Assembly (NCBI GenBank): GCA_020437395.1
Contig: JAGQWJ010000002.1
Span: forward strand, 62,001-126,000
From: Ignavibacteriota bacterium
GTDB lineage: Bacteria; Bacteroidota; Ignavibacteria; Kapaibacteriales; UBA2268
Length of the DNA: 64,000 nt
Direction of reading: 5' to 3'
This document shows, in pieces, positions 24,897-35,912 of the stretch (position 1 is the stretch's first letter; each line of letters begins with the position of its first letter). The notes under the pieces were generated by a model. That model was not told the origin of the DNA. It ran no database searches and saw nothing but the letters and a program-made list of their open reading frames with translations. The position numbers were made by a program, and so were the translations under genes.

Positions 24897-25907
24897 TTAT
24901 AAAGTTTCTAATATTGATAAATAAGATTGATATCGTTCAATATCTATCTCGCCGTCTTCAACCGCATTTTTTACCATACAACCCGGTTCATGAGTATGAG
25001 TACAAGGTGTGAATTTGCACTCTTCTCTATATCCAGTAAAATCCTTGAAATACATTTGTAGTTCCAGTTTGTCAAAATTCCAAATTGCTAACTCTCTTAA
25101 TCCGGGCGAATCTACTATTCTTGTTGTACCGTTAACATCAAACATCTGCACAAAACTAGTTGTATGTTTACCTTTCATATACTTTTCTGATATTTCACCC
25201 ACAGCTAGTACATCTTCGCCCAATATATAATTAATAAATGTAGATTTACCTACTCCAGAAGGACCAGTTACTAATGTAGTCATTCCATCTAATTTTGAAG
25301 ATATTTCATCTAAGTTTTGTTTTTCCTCCATTGATATATAAGTAATACTGTATCCCAAATCTTGATAAGGTTGCAAATCTTCTTTTATCAAATCCATATC
25401 CATAAGTTCTATTTTATTGAAACAAAGAATAGTTGGAATGCCATACATTTCGCAAGATATTAAGTATCTATCAAGTAAACCTTTGTTATAGAAAGGGTCT
25501 GCAACTGACATAAATATTATAATTTGATCTATATTAGAAGCAATTATTTGTTCTGTTTCTGACTTTTTTACAGATTGTCTTGATAATTTACTGTGTCTTT
25601 CTCTGATTTTTAAAATGACCGCTTGATTATTCTGATCGGATGTCTGATAATAAACTCTATCACCAACCGCAGCAATATTAATATTTTCATAAGGAGTAAT
25701 TACCGTACCTCCTAATATGCATTCGACAAACTCATCGGTTTTTTCATCTTTAACTCTGTAATTTGAACCTAACGCAAGATAAATCGTGCCTTTTTTTGCC
25801 TCATCAGGTATTTTACCTGATTTTTTTGTCAAAATTCTCTTTGCAGATTTAGACTTTCTGAAAGGTTCTTTACTGAATATTTGCTTGTTTTTTTTCTTTT
25901 GAGCCAT
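24897..25907 (-). CDS. rsgA: Ribosome biogenesis GTPase RsgA
   Basis: The 336-residue circularly permuted GTPase matures the 30S subunit. The G motifs occur in permuted order: CFNKIELMD (G4) precedes GPSGVGKST (G1) and DSPGLREL (G3). An OB-fold N-terminal domain and a C-terminal zinc knuckle with C-(P/T)-C-THTHEPGC residues complete the family pattern. A lysine-rich N-terminal extension (KKKNKQIFSKEPFRKSKSAKR) is somewhat longer than usual. Divergent from recJ; a short hairpin lies just upstream of the start (25919-25938). Confidence 0.94.
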   Translation of the reverse strand: MAQKKKNKQIFSKEPFRKSKSAKRILTKKSGKIPDEAKKGTIYLALGSNYRVKDEKTDEFVECILGGTVITPYENINIAAVGDRVYYQTSDQNNQAVILKIRERHSKLSRQSVKKSETEQIIASNIDQIIIFMSVADPFYNKGLLDRYLISCEMYGIPTILCFNKIELMDMDLIKEDLQPYQDLGYSITYISMEEKQNLDEISSKLDGMTTLVTGPSGVGKSTFINYILGEDVLAVGEISEKYMKGKHTTSFVQMFDVNGTTRIVDSPGLRELAIWNFDKLELQMYFKDFTGYREECKFTPCTHTHEPGCMVKNAVEDGEIDIERYQSYLSILETL

Positions 25908-25918
25908 TTTTTTTATGT

Positions 25919-25938
25919 GTGTGTAATTAACTACACAC
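25919..25938. promoter_or_regulatory. Hairpin in the rsgA-recJ divergent gap
   Basis: Perfect 7 bp arms GTGTGTA and TACACAC surround a 6 nt loop, 12 bases upstream of the rsgA ATG and just before the recJ promoter. It would be in the 5' leader of rsgA or at an operator. It is in the wrong place for a terminator because the genes diverge. Confidence 0.4.
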
Positions 25939-25943
25939 TTTTT

Positions 25944-25975
25944 CTTGTTAGGATAATATTAATTCGTTAGATTTG
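25944..25975 (+). promoter_or_regulatory. Putative Bacteroidota-type promoter of recJ
   Basis: CTTG at 25944-25947 and TAGATTTG at 25968-25975 are 20 bp apart: full match at -7, three of four at -33. The predicted start site near 25982 places the recJ TTG codon about 20 bases downstream. Confidence 0.5.
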
Positions 25976-26002
25976 CTAAAATATAAAATAATCGGTTAAA
26001 AT

Positions 26003-27700
26003 TTGTATTATCGTTGGAAATTTAAAGATAAACCAAATGAAGAAACAGTACACAACTTAGCGAAATCACTTAAAATACCAAAGACTTTGGGAAGAGTTTT
26101 AGTTGGACGGGGTATAAATACCCCCGAAGATGCAAAAAAATTCTTTGTACCTTCAAAGCAAAATATACATAACCCTTTCTTAATGAAAGATATGGATAAA
26201 GCAGTTGAGCGTATAATAAAAGCCCGAGAAAACAATGAGTCTATTTGGATACATGGTGATTATGATGTCGATGGAACGTGCAGTACAGCTGCATTATATA
26301 AGTTTCTTGAGAGTCTAGGATGTAGAGTTCAGTTTTTCATTCCTGATAGGTTTCAAGATGGCTACGGACTGTCAGAACGTAGTATTTTGGGTGCTAAAGA
26401 ATTCGGTGCGACTGTGCTGATAACAGTCGATGTAGGAATAACAGCCATAAATATATCTCAAGATGTAAAAGATGCGGGCATGGATCTCATAATTTGTGAT
26501 CATCACGAACCTGGTGATGAATTGCCTACTGCCTATGCCATATTAGACCCTATAAGAAAAGATTGTGAATATCCCTTCAAGAATCTTGCCGCATGTGGAG
26601 TTGTTTTCAAGCTAATCCAAGGATTATCCCAATCCCTCGGGATTCCTGAAAGAGCTTATGAATATTTAGATTTTGTTGCAATGGCAAGTGCTGCCGATAT
26701 GGTACCACTAATAGGTGAAAATAGAACTTTAGTTTATTATGGATTAAAGTTGATAAATGAAAAAACTAGACCAGGTCTAAAAGGTTTAATTCATTGTACT
26801 AATCTGAAGATAGGCTCAATTACTGCCACGAATATTGTTTTCGCAGTCGCGCCAATAATTAATGCCGCCGGACGAATGGGTGAGGCACTTAGGTCTGTGA
26901 ATATGATGATTCAAGATGATGAAATACATGCGTTCCAAATTGCTCAGCAATTAGAAGATGAGAATAGAAAACGAAGATATATTGACCAACAAACTTTTGA
27001 GGAAGCAATTCCTTTGGCAGAGAAACAACTACAAGATGGGGCTCGATCTTTAATTATTCATCAACCACATTGGCACGCAGGAGTTATTGGTATTGTTGCC
27101 TCTAGATTAGTAGATAGGTTTAATGTACCTACTATATTGATGACAACTATTCATGGTTTTGCGAAAGGTTCTTGTCGTAGTCCTAATAACTTTGATATAT
27201 ATTCGGCTCTTAAAAGAGCTTCTCATTTATTGATTGAGTTCGGAGGTCATCGCCATGCCGCTGGACTGACATTACAAGAATCAGACGTCCCTGAGTTAAG
27301 AAAGATTATAAACTCTTGTGCTGATGAAAATATTTCTTCTGATATGCTTACTCATGAAATGGAGATAGATTCGGAATTGAAACTTAATGAGCTATCCCCT
27401 AATTTTATATCATCTCTCAACAAGTTTGCTCCTTATGGCTATGCTAATTATAAGCCGATTTTCTTTTCTAGAGGAGTTACTTCGTCTAATGGTGTTAAGA
27501 TTGTGGGTCAGAATAATTTAAAATTCAGAGCATTTCAGAATAATTTTGCTATTGATGCTATTGCTTTCGGTTTAGCAAATAAATATGATATAGTCACTAC
27601 TGGTAAGCCATTTAAAATTCTATATAATTTAGAAATTAATACATTTAACGGACAAAACACACCACAACTTTTTATTCGAGATATAAAGCCGCAAGACTAG
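26003..27700 (+). CDS. recJ: Single-stranded-DNA-specific exonuclease RecJ
   Basis: The 565-residue DHH-family 5'-3' ssDNA exonuclease acts in recombination and mismatch repair. The metal-binding motif I is HGDYDVDGTCS with D86, D88 and D90, and the DHH motif is ICDHHEPGD. The DHHA1 domain contains FGGHRHAAGLTL. An OB-type C-terminal domain follows. The only sensible start is the TTG at 26003, since it gives the family-typical YRWKFKDKPNEETVHNLAKSL and no ATG exists until residue 61; a matching promoter lies upstream. The next gene, a Dna2-like nuclease-helicase, starts 2 bp after the stop. Confidence 0.94.
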   Translation: MYYRWKFKDKPNEETVHNLAKSLKIPKTLGRVLVGRGINTPEDAKKFFVPSKQNIHNPFLMKDMDKAVERIIKARENNESIWIHGDYDVDGTCSTAALYKFLESLGCRVQFFIPDRFQDGYGLSERSILGAKEFGATVLITVDVGITAINISQDVKDAGMDLIICDHHEPGDELPTAYAILDPIRKDCEYPFKNLAACGVVFKLIQGLSQSLGIPERAYEYLDFVAMASAADMVPLIGENRTLVYYGLKLINEKTRPGLKGLIHCTNLKIGSITATNIVFAVAPIINAAGRMGEALRSVNMMIQDDEIHAFQIAQQLEDENRKRRYIDQQTFEEAIPLAEKQLQDGARSLIIHQPHWHAGVIGIVASRLVDRFNVPTILMTTIHGFAKGSCRSPNNFDIYSALKRASHLLIEFGGHRHAAGLTLQESDVPELRKIINSCADENISSDMLTHEMEIDSELKLNELSPNFISSLNKFAPYGYANYKPIFFSRGVTSSNGVKIVGQNNLKFRAFQNNFAIDAIAFGLANKYDIVTTGKPFKILYNLEINTFNGQNTPQLFIRDIKPQD

Positions 27701-27701
27701 G

Positions 27702-30700
27702 ATGATAGCCAAGGAAAAAGCTCTTTCTTTTGAAGAGGAAATAAAGCTAAAACTATATGATTTCGAAAATACCCATACGTTTCGCACATTGCAAGCGTAT
27801 GATATTTTCAAACAGATTGTGAATTCTGCTTTAATTGATGAAAAGTCATATTTTTCTGGCCTACATGCTAAATTGCTTTATTTATTTAACAAACTCAACT
27901 TAACTCAAGAACTAATTGATAAAATAAATAGTTACAGAAAGTATATAAATAAGCTAATTACAACGCCAACTCTCTATTGTTCAAAAGAGGATATGGAATC
28001 CTCATTCAGAATTGCACTTGCTATATTAGAAATTACTTCTAATGGAATTTTAGACAATGATTTGAAAAAATTTCTTTCTGAAGAACCTATTTTAACCTAT
28101 GTTCATTCAACTGATGTTGAATTGAATTCGTTCAAATTAGTAGTTACCGCTAAGAGTAAGCCTGGAAGTGAACATAGAATAATATTTGGTGAAAGTGTAG
28201 AGCAAGGAAAAGTTGCAATTTATCTTAATAAAACGTGGGAATCACTTTGGAAGTATATTAGAAACTATAGTGAAATCAATGTTGTAGAAGTAGAAAAAAA
28301 TCATCAGAAAAATGGTTATAATGTTTTCTATTGTAATCCTAATACTTTTCTGGTTTATGAAAGTGACTATCTTATTGATGTTACAGAAATAGCAAGCTGC
28401 TTTCAAAATAATGGGCAATCCGAATATTTTGCTTTATTAAATTGGTTGAGTGTATCTTATCCATCAACTCCTATGATGATAGGAAATATTGTAAACAATC
28501 TCTTCGATGCTATTATATCTGATGAAGAAGTAGATACTAATCTTTTTATCGAAAATGAGTTATCGAAATCACCTTTGCAAAATATTTTTCTTAATAAATT
28601 TGATAAACAAAGCATTGGGAATATCAATAATGATGTTGAATTAATTTTTCAAAAGTTAAAAAGAACAATAATCGATATACCCAATGGTGAGACTTTTATT
28701 GAACCGAGTTTTATTTCACCAAAATTTGGTTTACAAGGCCGACTTGATGCAATGGTAGTAGATAGTAAAGATGATAATAAAAAAGAAGTAATAGAATTAA
28801 AATCTGGAGGTTTTCCGTCTAAGAATGTTCCGGTTAAAACCGGAAACGATATTGAATACTCATTATCAACTTGGCGGAATCATTATGTCCAAGCAAGTTG
28901 CTACAATTTAATTTTAAAATCAGTCTATCCAGAGAGGTATGGTAATTCTTCTATTTATTATGCCAAAGATGATAAAAAGCCATTTCGGAATGCACCAATT
29001 TTATCTGGAAATTTTCAAGAGATAATCGACTTAAGAAATAGAATAGTTGGGTTGTACTTTGATATTGCAAATAGAAACTTTAGTTCTATTGCAAATCTGG
29101 TTGATGAATTAGGCAAATTCCCACCGAGCTATTGGCAAAAAGACGTAGATTCATTTATTAATAAGTTGAATAATTCCAGTTCATTAGCGCATGAGTATCT
29201 GAAAGAAATGCTTTCTTTTGTTTTCCGCGAATTAATAAGCAATAAAGTTGGGAAATACTCAGCGAACCCCGAAAGAGCATACAGTAATCTTTGGTTAGAA
29301 GAACGGAAAAGTAATAGTAGAAATACATTACATTCGTTGCAATTAAACCAAGATGAGTCAAATTTTGATAATTACCATCTAAGGTTTGATAGATATGATT
29401 CGAGTGATTTGAATTTTAGGAATGGAGATCAAATAGTAATATACCCTACCACGGAAGATGGAATAACTCTTTTGCTGAAAGAACAATTGCTAAAAGGAGT
29501 TATAAAGCAAATTGATAAATCTCATGTTTTGATAAGTCTTAGAAATAAATTGTTAGGTAAAAAATTCCTTGAAAAGTATAGTAACTGGGCTATAGAAAGC
29601 GATTTCCTAGAACATTCGTTTAAGAAGTTGCCTTCCGTTTTATTTGACTTTATAGACGATGAAAATTTTGAAATTAAAGTAGGTAAAATAGAACAAAAAA
29701 TTGATCAAATAGATTACAGTTGTAATTATCTTAACGAAATGCAATCACAAATTGTAAAGGCTGCTATTTCAACTAAGAATTATTATCTTATTCAAGGGCC
29801 ACCAGGTACTGGGAAGACTTCTTTTGTTCTTAGAGCAATTTTAGAATATTATTATAATAATAGTGATAATAGTATATTACTTACTGCTTATACAAACCGT
29901 GCGGTCGATCAGATTTGTACGGTATTGAAGGAAAAAACAAATATTGATTTTATTCGGCTAGGATCCAAAGAATCATCAGAACACGGAGATGTATTACTTT
30001 CTAACCTCAGCACAGATTACAGTATTGCAGAACTTAAAGATAAATTTGAGTCAACAAGAGTAGTAGTTTCTACTGTTTCTTCTTTGCTTTCTCATCAAGA
30101 ATTATTTAAGCTTAAAAAATTTGGTATAGCAGTAGTTGACGAAGCAGCTCAGATTCTGGAGCCATTCGTTATAAAAATAATAAACTACGCTCAGAAGTAT
30201 ATAATGATAGGGGATGAGAAGCAACTGCCTGCTATTGTTACTCAAGCAGAATCAAATCATCAAATTGAAAATGATTTGTTGTCCACGATTGAAATGACAA
30301 ATATTTCGGAATCATACTTTGAGAGAATGTTGAGAAATGCGAAGAAAAACGGTTGGGATAATTCCTATGGTATGTTAACACATCAAGGTAGAATGGGACA
30401 GAAAATTATGGAATTAGCTAACAATTTATTTTACCAAGGAAAATTATTAAATATTGCATCGGAATCAAAGGCAATAGAAATTTTAGAATTTCAAAATGTA
30501 GAACCAGAGAATGTACCATATCTCAACAACGCAGAAGCCGATTATATTGTTAAAAAAATTGAAAATCTAATTGAAAATAATGAAACAAATGAGTTTGAAA
30601 TTGGTGTAATTAGTCCTTTCAGAAGTCAATGTGCATTAATAAGAAACAAGCTCCCATTTGAAATACGTGATAAAGTTGCAGTTGATACGGTAGAAAGGTT

Positions 30701-30929
30701 TCAAGGAAGTGAAAGAGACATTATTTTTATCTCTTTTGCTGTTAATAAGCCACATCATATTGTTAATATGTCATCTCCGATAATAATAGATGATATAGAA
30801 ATTGATAGGAAATTAAATGTTGCTATTACTAGAGCAAAACAACGATTATATGTAACAGGGTGTAGAGAAATATTAGTTCAATCGCCAATTTATAAAAAAT
30901 TCATAGATTTGTTAGTTAAAGAAAATTGA
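27702..30929 (+). CDS. Dna2-like nuclease-helicase (PD-(D/E)XK plus SF1B helicase)
   Basis: The 1075-residue protein combines two enzymatic parts. A PD-(D/E)XK-type nuclease is suggested by GRLDAMV (about 346-352) and IELKSGG (about 364-370) followed by HYVQASCYNLIL. A superfamily 1 helicase covers residues about 680-1075: Walker A GPPGTGKTS near 700, TAYTNRAVDQI, Walker B VVDEAAQ near 811, GDEKQLPAI, HQGRMG, DTVERFQGSERDII and the motif VI-like LNVAITRAKQRLYVTGC. This order matches eukaryotic/archaeal Dna2 and related bacterial proteins. Four cysteines of a possible FeS cluster around the nuclease are not evident. It is 2 bp after recJ, so the two probably process DNA ends together. Confidence 0.82.
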   Translation: MIAKEKALSFEEEIKLKLYDFENTHTFRTLQAYDIFKQIVNSALIDEKSYFSGLHAKLLYLFNKLNLTQELIDKINSYRKYINKLITTPTLYCSKEDMESSFRIALAILEITSNGILDNDLKKFLSEEPILTYVHSTDVELNSFKLVVTAKSKPGSEHRIIFGESVEQGKVAIYLNKTWESLWKYIRNYSEINVVEVEKNHQKNGYNVFYCNPNTFLVYESDYLIDVTEIASCFQNNGQSEYFALLNWLSVSYPSTPMMIGNIVNNLFDAIISDEEVDTNLFIENELSKSPLQNIFLNKFDKQSIGNINNDVELIFQKLKRTIIDIPNGETFIEPSFISPKFGLQGRLDAMVVDSKDDNKKEVIELKSGGFPSKNVPVKTGNDIEYSLSTWRNHYVQASCYNLILKSVYPERYGNSSIYYAKDDKKPFRNAPILSGNFQEIIDLRNRIVGLYFDIANRNFSSIANLVDELGKFPPSYWQKDVDSFINKLNNSSSLAHEYLKEMLSFVFRELISNKVGKYSANPERAYSNLWLEERKSNSRNTLHSLQLNQDESNFDNYHLRFDRYDSSDLNFRNGDQIVIYPTTEDGITLLLKEQLLKGVIKQIDKSHVLISLRNKLLGKKFLEKYSNWAIESDFLEHSFKKLPSVLFDFIDDENFEIKVGKIEQKIDQIDYSCNYLNEMQSQIVKAAISTKNYYLIQGPPGTGKTSFVLRAILEYYYNNSDNSILLTAYTNRAVDQICTVLKEKTNIDFIRLGSKESSEHGDVLLSNLSTDYSIAELKDKFESTRVVVSTVSSLLSHQELFKLKKFGIAVVDEAAQILEPFVIKIINYAQKYIMIGDEKQLPAIVTQAESNHQIENDLLSTIEMTNISESYFERMLRNAKKNGWDNSYGMLTHQGRMGQKIMELANNLFYQGKLLNIASESKAIEILEFQNVEPENVPYLNNAEADYIVKKIENLIENNETNEFEIGVISPFRSQCALIRNKLPFEIRDKVAVDTVERFQGSERDIIFISFAVNKPHHIVNMSSPIIIDDIEIDRKLNVAITRAKQRLYVTGCREILVQSPIYKKFIDLLVKEN

Positions 30930-30937
30930 CGATTTTG

Positions 30938-30945
30938 TATTTTTG
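30938..30945 (+). promoter_or_regulatory. Possible -7 element upstream of yebC
   Basis: TATTTTTG fits TAnnTTTG and lies 48 bp before the yebC ATG. No good TTTG partner is seen 19-21 bp upstream, so the call is weak. Confidence 0.3.
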
Positions 30946-30992
30946 TGTTCTATCATAAATCAAAGAAATTAAAAAAATAAGGTAAAAAGAAT

Positions 30993-31745
30993 ATGGCTGG
31001 ACATAGTAAATGGGCAAATATAAAGCATAGGAAAGGAAGACAAGACGCCCTAAAAGGAAAAATATTCACACAGATGGGAAAAGAGATTACGATTGCTGCT
31101 CGCGAGGGTGGTGGTGACCCAGATATGAATCCTCGTTTGCGTTTGGCAGTTAAGAAAGCACGTGAGAATGATATGCCTAAAGATAACATAGAGCGTGCTA
31201 TAAAAAAAGGTACAGGGGAATTAGAAGGTCAAGCATTTGAAGAATACACTTACGAAGGCTATGCACCCAATGGAGTAGCAATAATAGTTGAAACAATTTC
31301 TGATAATAAGAACAGAACCGTTTCTGAAGTCAGGGCTTGTTTTAGTAAATATGATGGTAATATGGGAGAAACGAACTCAGTTGCGTGGAATTTTGATAGA
31401 AAGGGAGTAGTGACTATTAAAACTTCAGGTGCTAGTGAAGATGATTTGATGATGGAAACATTAGAAGCAGGAGGAGAAGATGTGGAATATAGCCCTGAAA
31501 CATCTAGAATAATATGTGCGATGACGGATTTTAATACTGTTAATGATTATTTTGAAAAGAGTGTTTTCGAAATAAAAGATAGTCAATTAGAATATATAGC
31601 CAAAAACAAAGTGAAGATAACTGATGTTGCTATAGCTAAAAAAGTTATGCTTTTCTTAGATAAAATGGAAGAAGTTGACGATGTTCAAAATGTATATAAT
31701 AATGCTGATATAGACGACTCTGTTTTCGATCAGTTAGATTTGTAA
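30993..31745 (+). CDS. yebC: YebC/PmpR family protein
   Basis: The 250-residue protein has the universal family start AGHSKWANIKHRKGRQDALKG, then RLAVKKARENDMPKDNIERAIKKGTGE and YEGYAPNGVAIIVE. Members were annotated as transcriptional regulators and more recently linked to ribosome function at difficult sequences; which applies here is unknown. The terminal A of its stop codon is the first base of ruvC, and the yebC-ruvC pairing is common in bacteria. Confidence 0.95.
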   Translation: MAGHSKWANIKHRKGRQDALKGKIFTQMGKEITIAAREGGGDPDMNPRLRLAVKKARENDMPKDNIERAIKKGTGELEGQAFEEYTYEGYAPNGVAIIVETISDNKNRTVSEVRACFSKYDGNMGETNSVAWNFDRKGVVTIKTSGASEDDLMMETLEAGGEDVEYSPETSRIICAMTDFNTVNDYFEKSVFEIKDSQLEYIAKNKVKITDVAIAKKVMLFLDKMEEVDDVQNVYNNADIDDSVFDQLDL

Positions 31746-32284
31746 TGAGAGTTATTGGCATAGACCCTGGTTCTGTAATCTGCGGCTATGGCGTTGTGGA
31801 TATGGAGGGTAGTAGTTTTAAACTTGTCGAATATGGAGTTATTAAAGCAAAAATTCAATCTGATGATTTCAATGGTAGATTGAAAATACTCAATGACTCT
31901 GTTGATAGGATTATTAAAAGAACTAAACCAGATATTAGTGCTTTTGAAACTATATTCTATGCTAAAAATGTTCAATCATTAGTTAAGCTTTCGCATGCAA
32001 GAGCTGCGGCAATATTATCTGCTTCACACAATAAGATACCTATATTCGAATATTCACCTAATGAGATTAAAAAATCGGTTACTGGCAAAGGTAAAGCAGC
32101 CAAAGAGCAAGTTCAATTTATGGTGAAGAAAATACTCAATATTGATGAGACCCCAGAGTTTTTAGATTCTACCGATGCCCTTGCTATTGCAATATGTCAT
32201 TGTTTAAAGCAAGGAAATTCGAATACTAAGAAAGTTTCTAATTGGTCACAATTCGCTAAAGATAATCCAGATAGAATTAAGTGA
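31745..32284 (+). CDS. ruvC: Holliday junction resolvase RuvC
   Basis: The 179-residue RNase-H-fold endonuclease cuts Holliday junctions as part of RuvABC. It begins RVIGIDPGSVICGYGVV with catalytic D7. A second acidic site is in FETIFYAKNVQSLVKLSHARAAAI, and the C-terminal pair is in STDALAIAICH. The ATG overlaps the yebC stop by one base. It is convergent with the lectin gene at 32301 with a 16 bp gap and no clear terminator. Confidence 0.95.
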   Translation: MRVIGIDPGSVICGYGVVDMEGSSFKLVEYGVIKAKIQSDDFNGRLKILNDSVDRIIKRTKPDISAFETIFYAKNVQSLVKLSHARAAAILSASHNKIPIFEYSPNEIKKSVTGKGKAAKEQVQFMVKKILNIDETPEFLDSTDALAIAICHCLKQGNSNTKKVSNWSQFAKDNPDRIK

Positions 32285-32300
32285 TGTCTATTTAATGCGT

Positions 32301-35300
32301 CTATTCAAATTTTATAAATTTATATAAATTACTTAACCCTTTATACTCAACTCTAACAAAATAAACGCCTGATGCAAGATTTGTTAAATCAATTTCACTT
32401 GAATTATCAACTTCTATGACATAACCAAATACTGTTGCACCACTTAAATTTGTTATTGTTAACTCTACATCTAGGCTTTCTGATGAACCATTTTTTTGTA
32501 TTATTAACCTATTACTCCCTACTTCATAAAATGTGCTGATATTTTCATAGCTTATTTCAACTACTCTATACTCATGAGTGCAAATTGTATCTAACCTAAT
32601 CCAGCCATTGATAATTTCACTCTCAATAAATTTATTCTTCCACTCTAATGTATCGACAATTAAATGTTTTTTACTAAGATCAGTAAGTAACACTGTACCA
32701 CTAGGATTTTCGATTATTTGTTCCGAACTGTTTAGATTCCAGTCCTTGCCAAATGCCATTGGATTTGTTTTATTCTCGAAAAAGATAATTTCACTATCAA
32801 ATTTCAAATCAAATTGATAATAGTCATTTAAGTTTATATTGCTTCTTAATTTTATTGGTATATCAACAACATCACCAGGATAAGCAATAATTTGAGGCAA
32901 TTCTAGTACTACTTTAGTATAAACTTCACCAACTACATATACATAGAATGTATCTAGACATGGCTGTTCTACAACAAATTCAATGGTGTTATTATAAACC
33001 CCAATCTTAACAGGTGTAAAGGAATAATCTAATACTCTTTTATCCTGTAATTCAAATCTTTTCTGGTTACCATCAAAAAACGATGATATATCTATTGACT
33101 TTGTGAACTTAGACTTGAGTTCAACTTGAAAACTTACTTTGTCTGCTAAGTAAACCTTACCAAAGTTTATAGTATCTTTATATTCTAATTCCTTTTTAAT
33201 ATCAATTAATTCTACGAATACTGTATCATAACCAAAGCAGCCAAGTTCTGATTCGACTTCAATTGAGTAAATACCACTTTCTTTCACATAGATGCTATTT
33301 TCGTCACTACCGTTTGACCATTTTATTGACTTATAATCTCCTTCAACGAATAAAATTGTGCTATCAGGAAAACATACTTTCAAGCTTCCTAATATTTTGG
33401 GATTAGGTATATCACCTTTTTTTATTTCATAAAATAAAGTATCTATACAACTGTTATTTTTTGTTACTACAACAAATCCCTTTGCATTATCTTTAAACTT
33501 AGCTTTTGAATCAACACTTCCGTCTATCCATTCATAAGAACAATCCAAACAACCAATTACTTCAAGTTCTGTTACTTCACCTTCACAAATTGTCGTATCA
33601 CCAACTAATTCAGGGTAGAACCCATTTACAATTTCAACTTTTAGTTTACTTGTCTTTTCACACCCACTTTTAGCGTCTTTCAAAGTTATTGAATAAAGAC
33701 CATCTTTAGTCACCCAAATCGTGTCTTCTGTGGAATTATTAGACCATTCTACAGTATAATCAGATGAGTTAGTCTCATAAGTTAACATAGCAGAGTCAGT
33801 ATTACAACCTCCTTTGCTAATAATATTCACATAAATTGAATCAAACGAAACTACGTTGATGCTATCGTACGCTACGCATCCATTCCTATCTGTTGCTTTT
33901 AACCAATATAATCCAGGAGAATTAATGTTTATATTTGTGGCATTGCTACCTGTTGACCATTTATATTTTTCAAATTTTGTATCAGTACGTAAGTTAATAA
34001 AATCACCATTCTTGCATATAATAGAATCACCTGTTATATTAAAATCTAACTTAGGTAACATAATTACCTCTAGTGTATCATAAAATATGCAGCCCTCACC
34101 AGCTTCTATTTCTAAAGTATATATTCCAGCCTCTGTTATAGTAATCGATTTCGTTGACTCACCTGTTGACCATAAGTATTTTGATGCTTCTATTTCTGAC
34201 TCTACTTCAATACTATCATTGTGACAAATTTCTAATTTGGAAGGGAGTAAATTCATATTATTTTTAGAAAAATCTGCAAAAATTGATTTACTGATAAAAC
34301 ATCCATTTTTCAAATCTATATTCAAATCATATCTACCTTCAGTAATAACTATAGCTATATATCCTTCTGGGAATTTGCCTTCAACGAAATCATCTTGCGA
34401 TTTTGGTGAAAACCAAAATAATTTTTGTATCTTATCTTCTGCTAAAGGTATCTTATGATCCTTATCTTCAAATACTTTTACCTCAATGTAAGCTGTGTCT
34501 GCACATGGTGAATATGTAATTATTTCCTCAAAGTAATAATTCTCCTTAATTACTGTAATTTCTTTTTCATCGGAGCAAATGTTATTCAAATCATCTTTAA
34601 CCGAAGCAGTTACTACAAAAGTTATAGTATCACTATCACTATTTTTCAAATAAATTCTCTCTTTATCAGTAAGTTCCCCCTTATTCACAATGTATTCTTT
34701 GTTTGTCCAATCCCATTCGACTAAATCCGAATTGTCAACCTTTTTACCATCAATGATCATATCAAAATCAATTTCGATTTCATTTGATTGACACAATCTT
34801 ATAGTATCTAATTTTTCAGCTATTTCTATTCCTTTTGCATTAATTAAAAATTCATCTTTTGCAATACAACCGTTAGAATAATATACCGTAACTTCAACAA
34901 TGTCATTATCTTTCATTAGTAATCTGACTTTGTCTTTCTGTGAATTCAATGGTGCTATATTAGTGTTGTTGTTTTTTGATTGCCAAACTATATTATCAAT
35001 CGGTAATTTTGTCGTTGTCAAACTAAGTTCTATCTGACTATCCGGATTTTCTTTGCAAACTGATATTTCTTCATATCCACAATTGGGATTTGAAGTATCT
35101 AAGGGAGTGTCTTTATATATCTCAACAAAGCATGCCTCGTTTTCTCTTGTTATCTGGTCAAATCTCACCATGTGGATGTTGTCTCTCGTTGCAGTACCAG
35201 TAGTGAAACCCCAAAAAGCTAAATCCGTTTGTATTATAGAGTTTAATGAACGATTAGTTGAACCATCAAATCGTTCAGTCTTTCTCAACTGACCATCTAA

Positions 35301-35912
35301 GTAACTTGATAGTTCTTTTGTCTCTGTATTCCAAAAGAATTTCACACAGTGGAATGTGCTATCTTCAATATTTAACGGTCTATTTTTTATATCTTCTTTC
35401 GCGTTTCTATCTATACCAATTCTATCCATAAGATTCCCGTTAACAACGTAGCCAAAGTGGTCCTCAGGGTTTACATCAACGGCGGGGGGAGACCCCGGAT
35501 AGTTGAACCAAGTATCTAGTTCAATACCAAGTGAAGGAGAAACTTTCTTGTTTCCATCGTAAATATTCGCAGCGTAGCCCATACCGACTCCAAGACTACC
35601 TAATTTATCGTCTCCATCTGATTGTAGTACGAAAGCTATTCCATCGGCACCTTCTTTATCTTTGTACCCCAAATAATACTCTGCTTCAACTAGAAAATTC
35701 TTGTTAATATCAATTTTTTCAAACCCTGCTATTGAACTATTATTCCAAATTGCAGTTGCTTGCATCCTATTACTACCATCTGTTAATTGGTGTGCATTCT
35801 CTTTATTATTAAAACTATAATTTTTAGGGTTGCTTTGAACCACTTTGAATTGTGCTAATAAAAAAAATTGACAAAAGTAGAAGATTGATGCAAGTAGTAT
35901 TAATTTATTCAT
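32301..35912 (-). CDS. Large secreted protein: L-type lectin domain, WSxGS repeats, cohesin-like module, T9SS sorting domain
   Basis: The 1203-residue protein begins with a signal peptide. Residues about 22-270 resemble bacterial L-type (legume-like) lectins: DGIAFVLQSDGDD, LGVGMGYAANIYDG, PSLGIELDTWFN and FHCVKFFWNTETKELSSYLDG. From about 575 to 890 at least five repeats follow the form xxWSxGSxxxxIxVxxxGxYxxxV, each about 85-90 residues. A segment near 1000-1130 (YPGDVVDIPIKLRS...YYQFDLKFDSEIIFFEN) looks cohesin-like. The final ~70 residues (NLSGATVFGY...LTNLASGVYFVRVEYKG) are a type IX secretion sorting domain. Likely a cell-surface or released carbohydrate-binding adhesin; ligand unknown. 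Confidence 0.82.
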   Translation of the reverse strand: MNKLILLASIFYFCQFFLLAQFKVVQSNPKNYSFNNKENAHQLTDGSNRMQATAIWNNSSIAGFEKIDINKNFLVEAEYYLGYKDKEGADGIAFVLQSDGDDKLGSLGVGMGYAANIYDGNKKVSPSLGIELDTWFNYPGSPPAVDVNPEDHFGYVVNGNLMDRIGIDRNAKEDIKNRPLNIEDSTFHCVKFFWNTETKELSSYLDGQLRKTERFDGSTNRSLNSIIQTDLAFWGFTTGTATRDNIHMVRFDQITRENEACFVEIYKDTPLDTSNPNCGYEEISVCKENPDSQIELSLTTTKLPIDNIVWQSKNNNTNIAPLNSQKDKVRLLMKDNDIVEVTVYYSNGCIAKDEFLINAKGIEIAEKLDTIRLCQSNEIEIDFDMIIDGKKVDNSDLVEWDWTNKEYIVNKGELTDKERIYLKNSDSDTITFVVTASVKDDLNNICSDEKEITVIKENYYFEEIITYSPCADTAYIEVKVFEDKDHKIPLAEDKIQKLFWFSPKSQDDFVEGKFPEGYIAIVITEGRYDLNIDLKNGCFISKSIFADFSKNNMNLLPSKLEICHNDSIEVESEIEASKYLWSTGESTKSITITEAGIYTLEIEAGEGCIFYDTLEVIMLPKLDFNITGDSIICKNGDFINLRTDTKFEKYKWSTGSNATNININSPGLYWLKATDRNGCVAYDSINVVSFDSIYVNIISKGGCNTDSAMLTYETNSSDYTVEWSNNSTEDTIWVTKDGLYSITLKDAKSGCEKTSKLKVEIVNGFYPELVGDTTICEGEVTELEVIGCLDCSYEWIDGSVDSKAKFKDNAKGFVVVTKNNSCIDTLFYEIKKGDIPNPKILGSLKVCFPDSTILFVEGDYKSIKWSNGSDENSIYVKESGIYSIEVESELGCFGYDTVFVELIDIKKELEYKDTINFGKVYLADKVSFQVELKSKFTKSIDISSFFDGNQKRFELQDKRVLDYSFTPVKIGVYNNTIEFVVEQPCLDTFYVYVVGEVYTKVVLELPQIIAYPGDVVDIPIKLRSNINLNDYYQFDLKFDSEIIFFENKTNPMAFGKDWNLNSSEQIIENPSGTVLLTDLSKKHLIVDTLEWKNKFIESEIINGWIRLDTICTHEYRVVEISYENISTFYEVGSNRLIIQKNGSSESLDVELTITNLSGATVFGYVIEVDNSSEIDLTNLASGVYFVRVEYKGLSNLYKFIKFE

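Follow-up and report, generated by a model that had tools for sequence, protein, structure and literature searches.

The gene directly downstream of recJ in this bacterium encodes a predicted Dna2-like enzyme in which a nuclease is joined to an SF1 helicase. A preliminary description of the locus proposed that the two gene products form a DNA-end resection unit different from AddAB or RecBCD. To judge this proposal, the gene run, the Dna2-like protein, the remaining repair genes of the genome and the corresponding loci of related genomes were analyzed. The window, i.e. the whole stretch of 64,000 nucleotides under study (G000:C59:62001-126000), belongs to a genome of 2.94 Mb in 136 contigs. 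The source organism most likely falls in the Kapaibacterium group of Bacteroidota; a Candidatus Kapaibacterium MAG (L037) is one of the named records that hold a relative of the Dna2-like protein. The window contains the following features:

24897..25907, minus strand: rsgA, divergent neighbour of recJ (PF03193; tblastn in relatives)
26003..27700, plus strand: recJ, 5'-3' single-strand exonuclease of 565 aa with DHH, DHHA1 and OB domains (TIGR00644, 529.4 bits; Pfam DHH, DHHA1 and RecJ_OB)
27702..30929, plus strand: dna2, predicted Dna2-like helicase-nuclease of 1075 aa lacking the iron-staple cysteine trio (PF08696, AAA_11 and AAA_12; DNA2 entries of the PDB by sequence and fold; cysteine test)
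27702..28121, plus strand: N-terminal helical extension, aa 1-140, of low model confidence (AlphaFold2 helices at aa 10-126; alignment occupancy)
28701..28904, plus strand: predicted PD-(D/E)xK nuclease motifs, aa 334-401, comprising E334, G346-R347-x-D349, E365-x-K367 and Q397-x3-Y401 (invariant in 68 of 68 aligned rows)
29730..30866, plus strand: predicted SF1 helicase core of the UPF1/DNA2 type, aa 677-1055, Walker A at about aa 699-706 (AAA_11/AAA_12; invariant residues)
30993..31745, plus strand: yebC/TACO1-type gene, third in the run (PF01709, PF20772)
31745..32284, plus strand: ruvC, Holliday-junction resolvase (PF02075, 167.2 bits)

The order on the plus strand is thus recJ, dna2, yebC, ruvC. 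Only 1 bp separates the first two genes, not 2 bp as previously described (the recJ stop codon TAG ends at 27700 and the dna2 start codon ATG begins at 27702), and the last base of yebC is the first base of ruvC. Co-transcription is predicted from this tight spacing alone, because a promoter and terminator scan of positions 25700-32500 returned hits that were not above those of shuffled sequences. Beyond ruvC, on the minus strand (32301-35912), lies a gene for a secreted-looking protein of 1203 aa whose C-terminal part resembles, by eye only, a secretion sorting domain.

The identity of the two genes agreed with the preliminary description. With 529.4 bits against a TIGR00644 cut-off of 396.9, the recJ product ranks as an equivalog, i.e. 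as canonical RecJ. In the 1075-aa protein, PF08696 (Dna2) matched aa 170-350 with 39.4 bits (curated cut-off, 22.4), and both SF1 helicase halves, AAA_11 and AAA_12, were recognized by Pfam. DNA2 was the top hit of a single-sequence PDB search (E = 1.3e-35) and was favoured over Sen1 in a profile search (8.4e-64 vs 9.6e-49). An AlphaFold2 model built from the protein and 13 relatives reached a mean pLDDT of 80.2 and a pTM of 0.79. When this model was submitted to Foldseek, three DNA2 structures ranked first (1.5e-43 to 9.5e-42), followed by UPF1 (1.2e-28). In VIA-align, residues 142-1075 of the model were superimposed on mouse Dna2 (5eaw) over 834 residues that span nuclease and helicase (4.4 A, Z = 24.9). 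Ighmbp2 and UPF1 gave Z scores of up to 34.8, but these alignments covered some 510 to 530 residues within the helicase part. Sequence and model together class the protein as a predicted RecB-family nuclease (N-terminal) fused to an SF1 helicase of the UPF1/DNA2 group (C-terminal). The higher Z scores of UPF1-type RNA helicases (34.8 vs 24.9), which concern the helicase part, leave room for RNA substrates, which the protein may also use. In the N-terminal extension the 10-residue mean pLDDT ranged from 35 to 75. This extension is short or missing in eight of nine f2 rows and in the single f6 row of the family alignment, and the dna2 genes of these rows still lie near recJ.

The family alignment comprised 68 rows (the protein of the window and 67 other ORFs) with pairwise identities never above 90%. 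Eight nuclease residues (E334, G346, R347, D349, E365, K367, Q397 and Y401) and the helicase residues K705, T706, D813, E814 and R897 were unchanged in all of them. A dead nuclease can therefore be ruled out at the level of sequence. A different result was obtained for the iron staple, which is a defining feature of DNA2 and Bad according to the available portion of PMC7430649. Membership was judged by four cysteines, of which the last three form a CxxC...C arrangement that follows the nuclease motifs. None of the 68 rows contained the trio CxxC-x(3-10)-C in the interval from Y401 to residue 560; three rows have three cysteines there, at other spacings. The most common cysteines were C739 in the helicase (58/68) and C233 at the start of the nuclease (53/68). 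A related trio pattern was detected in six other fetched ORFs, five of which carry a helicase P-loop (L050, L077, L088, L098 and L105), so that the absence from the Dna2-like family cannot be put down to the search method. Since the trio is missing, the protein, a DNA2 by its predicted plan, fails as a member of the iron-staple DNA2/Bad group and seemingly lacks an Fe-S cluster.

A search of the whole genome with PDDEXK_1 (PF12705; E <= 0.001) returned two proteins, encoded on contigs C65 and C74. AddAB is hence absent from the window, as had been noted, and both candidates lie on other contigs. The first protein (1183 aa; UvrD plus PDDEXK_1) scored 244.5 bits with TIGR02785, below the cut-off of 707.65. 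The second (1032 aa) scored 60.8 bits with TIGR02773, below the cut-off of 903.7, and 44.4 bits with PDDEXK_1, above the cut-off. On the basis of architecture and these partial TIGRFAM matches they are referred to as AddA-like and AddB-like. The nuclease motif of the AddB-like protein fits the motif pattern; the AddA-like protein gave no pattern match, and a WDWKT run was seen by eye. An AddB-like match was found in 54 of 60 genomes of the same order. Among the six genomes missed by this query, four (family f2) contain PDDEXK_1 in frames of 943-1030 aa with CxxC...C tails, and for two (G026 and G040) both searches came back without an AddB-like match. The AddA query matched in 60 of 60 genomes, but the matches in G029 and G031 were confined to a PcrA-sized frame (711 and 739 aa), and therefore no AddA was assigned to these two. 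As to cysteines, no CxxC...C trio is present in the last 160 residues of the AddB-like protein of the window's genome (L003:2237-5335). The f2 AddB-type proteins (L146-L153) have it in eight of eight cases. Judged by sequence, the iron staple was possibly lost separately in the former protein. The genome further encodes RecQ (873 aa, with RQC and HRDC, contig C89), RecF and RecR (both above cut-off), and a Pol I 5'-3' exonuclease domain in a 943-aa frame. RecQ-family matches were obtained in 60 of 60 genomes, 55 of them above cut-off.

Presence of dna2 and its linkage to recJ were then considered across genomes. The Dna2-like protein and recJ were each matched in 58 of the 60 same-order genomes, the window's own genome included. 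Genes were scored as adjacent when the matched stretches lay on one strand, less than 1.5 kb apart and with recJ first; intervening ORFs were inspected in a subset of the loci. By this measure recJ precedes dna2 in 35 of the 57 genomes having both (own genome included) and in six of ten families, so that chance adjacency can be ruled out. In 19 of the remaining genomes the two genes are on different contigs, and in three they are apart on one contig. Linked genomes are distributed as follows: f1, 25/34; f2, 3/4; f3, 3/3; f5, 2/2; f6, 1/1; f9, 1/3. Linkage was seen in 0/3 genomes each of f4, f7 and f8, and in 0/1 of f10. Several scores depend on local circumstances. In G013 and G017 (f1), scored as unlinked, a gene lies near a contig end, and these may be broken pairs. 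G059 (L167) was scored as non-adjacent with a gap of 1.7 kb that holds one ORF of 485 aa. Locus L038, labelled Chloroherpeton thalassium (Chlorobiota), is linked, and its recJ nests inside f1 in the recJ tree; its label may therefore be wrong. Downstream of dna2, ruvC was found within 1 kb in five of 17 loci (L158-L174), from families f1, f2 and f3. In 152 pairs from 18 linked loci, median identity was 55% for recJ and 31% for dna2 (Spearman, 0.54), indicating that dna2 diverged fast while its position was kept.

In a draw of 247 genomes from the phylum, 32 matched the Dna2-like protein at E 1e-80, 20 of them from its own order and 12 from outside. The draw added linked loci in f2 (5/5) and none in f9 (0/2), and linkage among the 12 outside-order carriers was 0/12. 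Five of these carriers (G101, G119, G210, G213 and G228) gave no recJ match.

Gene order may be inherited irrespective of function, and rsgA, which has no known recombination role, served as control. It neighboured recJ at 11 of the 17 loci examined (L158-L174) and at 14 of 20 loci in which dna2 is unlinked. The latter sample covered the recJ side in 20 of 23 unlinked genomes (G049, G054 and G058 left out), and several of its stretches stop at a contig end. As rsgA has stayed next to recJ with about the same frequency, part of the recJ-dna2 linkage is inherited gene order. In six of the 20 unlinked loci (families f4, f8 and f10) recJ, yebC and ruvC form a run without dna2. Together with the rsgA control, these runs lead to the conclusion that dna2 joined, or left, an older recJ-yebC-ruvC run. 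A purely functional explanation of the linkage is weakened by both controls. The linked state is clustered on a 39-row tree of recJ, where it required eight changes, as compared with a mean of 13.3 after shuffling (three of 500 shuffles were as low), and f4, f7, f8 and f10, all unlinked, formed one group (support 94/93). A partially shared order of spoU, nuoD, rsgA, recJ, yebC and ruvC was observed in several families (L165-L170, L192-L194 and L196-L198).

With a probability of about 0.5, we interpret dna2 in the recJ-dna2-yebC-ruvC run as an added branch of 5'-strand processing beside AddAB and not as its substitute; since AddA-like and AddB-like proteins are encoded in the same genome, the Dna2-like enzyme is an extra one. 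From what is known of the family, this DNA2/Bad relative without iron staple would load onto single strands with a 5' end, be it at resected ends, gaps, flaps or reversed forks. Its SF1B motor would move 5'-3', and the 5' strand would be cut endonucleolytically. RecJ would trim 5' ends exposed by RecQ or by the Dna2-like motor, the 3' strand would pass to RecFOR/RecA, and junctions would be resolved by RuvC, while AddAB would handle double-strand ends in the same cell. Polarity, substrate and cooperation with RecJ are thus transferred from relatives, co-transcription is predicted from the map, and a joint RecJ/Dna2-like resection unit is what we infer from gene adjacency. According to the available portion of PMC1193525, systematic clustering of recombination genes is, with few exceptions, restricted to those whose products form stable complexes. 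The added branch is supported by this clustering rule, the activities described for Bad, the full-length DNA2 match, the invariant sites, the presence in 58 of 60 genomes, the recJ linkage, ruvC downstream, and RecQ, RecF and RecR in the genome. Against it stand the similarly frequent retention of rsgA, the recJ-yebC-ruvC runs without dna2, the lack of adjacency in f4, f7, f8 and f10 (0/10), the unlinked members outside the order, the higher Z scores of UPF1-type RNA helicases over the helicase part, and a literature search that found no biochemistry on the enzyme of the Kapaibacterium-like clade.

Three other explanations were weighed against the added branch. That RecJ and the Dna2-like protein act as a stand-alone resection unit in place of AddAB or RecBCD is very improbable. 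Two 5'-strand nucleases encoded side by side would suit such a unit, as would G026 and G040 with their missing AddB-like match, yet G026 also lacks Dna2-like and recJ matches. For the source genome replacement is rejected, given the AddA-like and AddB-like proteins encoded there, and the 54 AddB-like matches plus the PDDEXK_1 frames in the four missed f2 genomes argue against it in the order. The preliminary description had named, as what would count against its proposal, complete AddAB or RecBCD in a genome without conserved recJ linkage, or an inactive nuclease site. AddAB-type proteins are indeed present, and the claim that the pair takes their place falls with them; the linkage to recJ, however, is conserved, and no nuclease motif is disrupted. 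In the survey across genomes the linkage recurs (35/57 genomes, 6/10 families), and AddB-like matches occur in 54 of 60 genomes.

A role in the maturation of Okazaki 5' flaps or the processing of stalled or reversed forks, with the place beside recJ and ruvC being incidental, is rather unlikely. Bad and DNA2 prefer 5'-flap substrates (available portion of PMC7430649), dna2 is nearly universal in the order and sits elsewhere in the unlinked families, e.g. beside CTP synthase in f8, and the rsgA control illustrates that gene order can last without shared function. However, the Pol I 5'-3' exonuclease domain provides an ordinary enzyme for flap removal, and dna2 adjoins recJ in genomes of six families. 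A helicase-nuclease of anti-phage defence or restriction, resembling Mokosh or in line with the role suggested for Bad, is disfavoured and decidedly unlikely. The PADLOC MkoA model matched with E = 9.7e-62, best over aa 783-1060 of the helicase part, NCBIfam PLuB_AAA scored 209.5 bits (far below its cut-off of 999), and the distribution outside the order is sporadic; for Bad, a restriction role was proposed from an adjacent methyltransferase in the available portion of PMC7430649. Carriage by 58 of 60 same-order genomes speaks against defence, and none of nine recurrent neighbours scanned with Pfam is a known defence gene or methyltransferase. Those outside the order were GH3, Big_5, DUF3108, TatC, Mur ligase/alanine racemase, an SRP54-type GTPase and one protein without match; those in unlinked same-order families were a chemotaxis receptor and CTP synthase.

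A bolder form of the added branch is speculative and rather doubtful: an iron-free DNA2 could act with RecJ and RecQ, like BLM-DNA2, as a dedicated second machine for end or fork resection beside AddAB, encoded in one operon with RuvC. In the eukaryotic BLM-DNA2 pair, a RecQ-type helicase works with DNA2 in resection. If true, the bacterial system would be a counterpart of eukaryotic long-range resection in which the Fe-S cluster was lost or never present. With a Dna2-like gene that is nearly universal in an order and often lies among recombination genes, the role of a bacterial DNA2 can be studied in its natural context, and a version possibly free of Fe-S may purify more easily.

Among known systems, eukaryotic DNA2 (5eaw/5ean/5eax) shares with the Dna2-like protein the order of nuclease, barrel and SF1B helicase, the fold match over 834 residues, and the run IExSxxSPxFGLxGxxD...ELK(S/T)G. 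The Dna2-like protein differs from DNA2 in (i) lacking the CxxC...C trio; (ii) having an added N-terminal helical region; (iii) carrying Asn in 61 of 68 rows where the DNA2 His aligns, in a weakly matching segment (-1.5 bits). The AddB nuclease domain, which has an iron staple, is likewise a RecB-family PD-(D/E)xK nuclease associated with SF1-type helicase action in break repair, but it belongs with another helicase subfamily, and AddA-like and AddB-like proteins are encoded separately in this genome. In the RecF pathway of E. coli the RecQ helicase works with RecJ in 5'-strand removal. RecJ with a helicase partner is thus common to both, whereas the gene next to recJ here encodes helicase and nuclease in one polypeptide, with RecQ encoded on contig C89. 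Mokosh is a two-gene or PLD-fused defence locus; MkoA and UPF1-type helicases have an SF1 helicase core like that of the Dna2-like protein, but the stretch best matching MkoA falls within the helicase part only, and no known defence gene was seen among the recurrent neighbours that were scanned. Searches of open-licence PMC papers, judged mostly from titles and abstract openings, turned up no report of a recJ-dna2 operon or of DNA2 in Bacteroidetes, and the nearest report is that on Bad of Geobacillus (PMC7430649). In its available portion, Bad is described as a 5'-3' helicase and ssDNA endonuclease that prefers 5' overhangs, and bacterial DNA2-like enzymes as rare, sporadic, Fe-S containing and of unknown role. 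Bad is bacterial and has the same domain plan, but it possesses an Fe-S cluster, occurs sporadically and has a methyltransferase neighbour in Geobacilli, whereas the trio is missing from the present family, which is close to universal within one order and often adjoins recJ. Compared with that portion of the Bad report, the near-universality in one order (58/60) and the absence of the iron-staple trio (0/68) are new.
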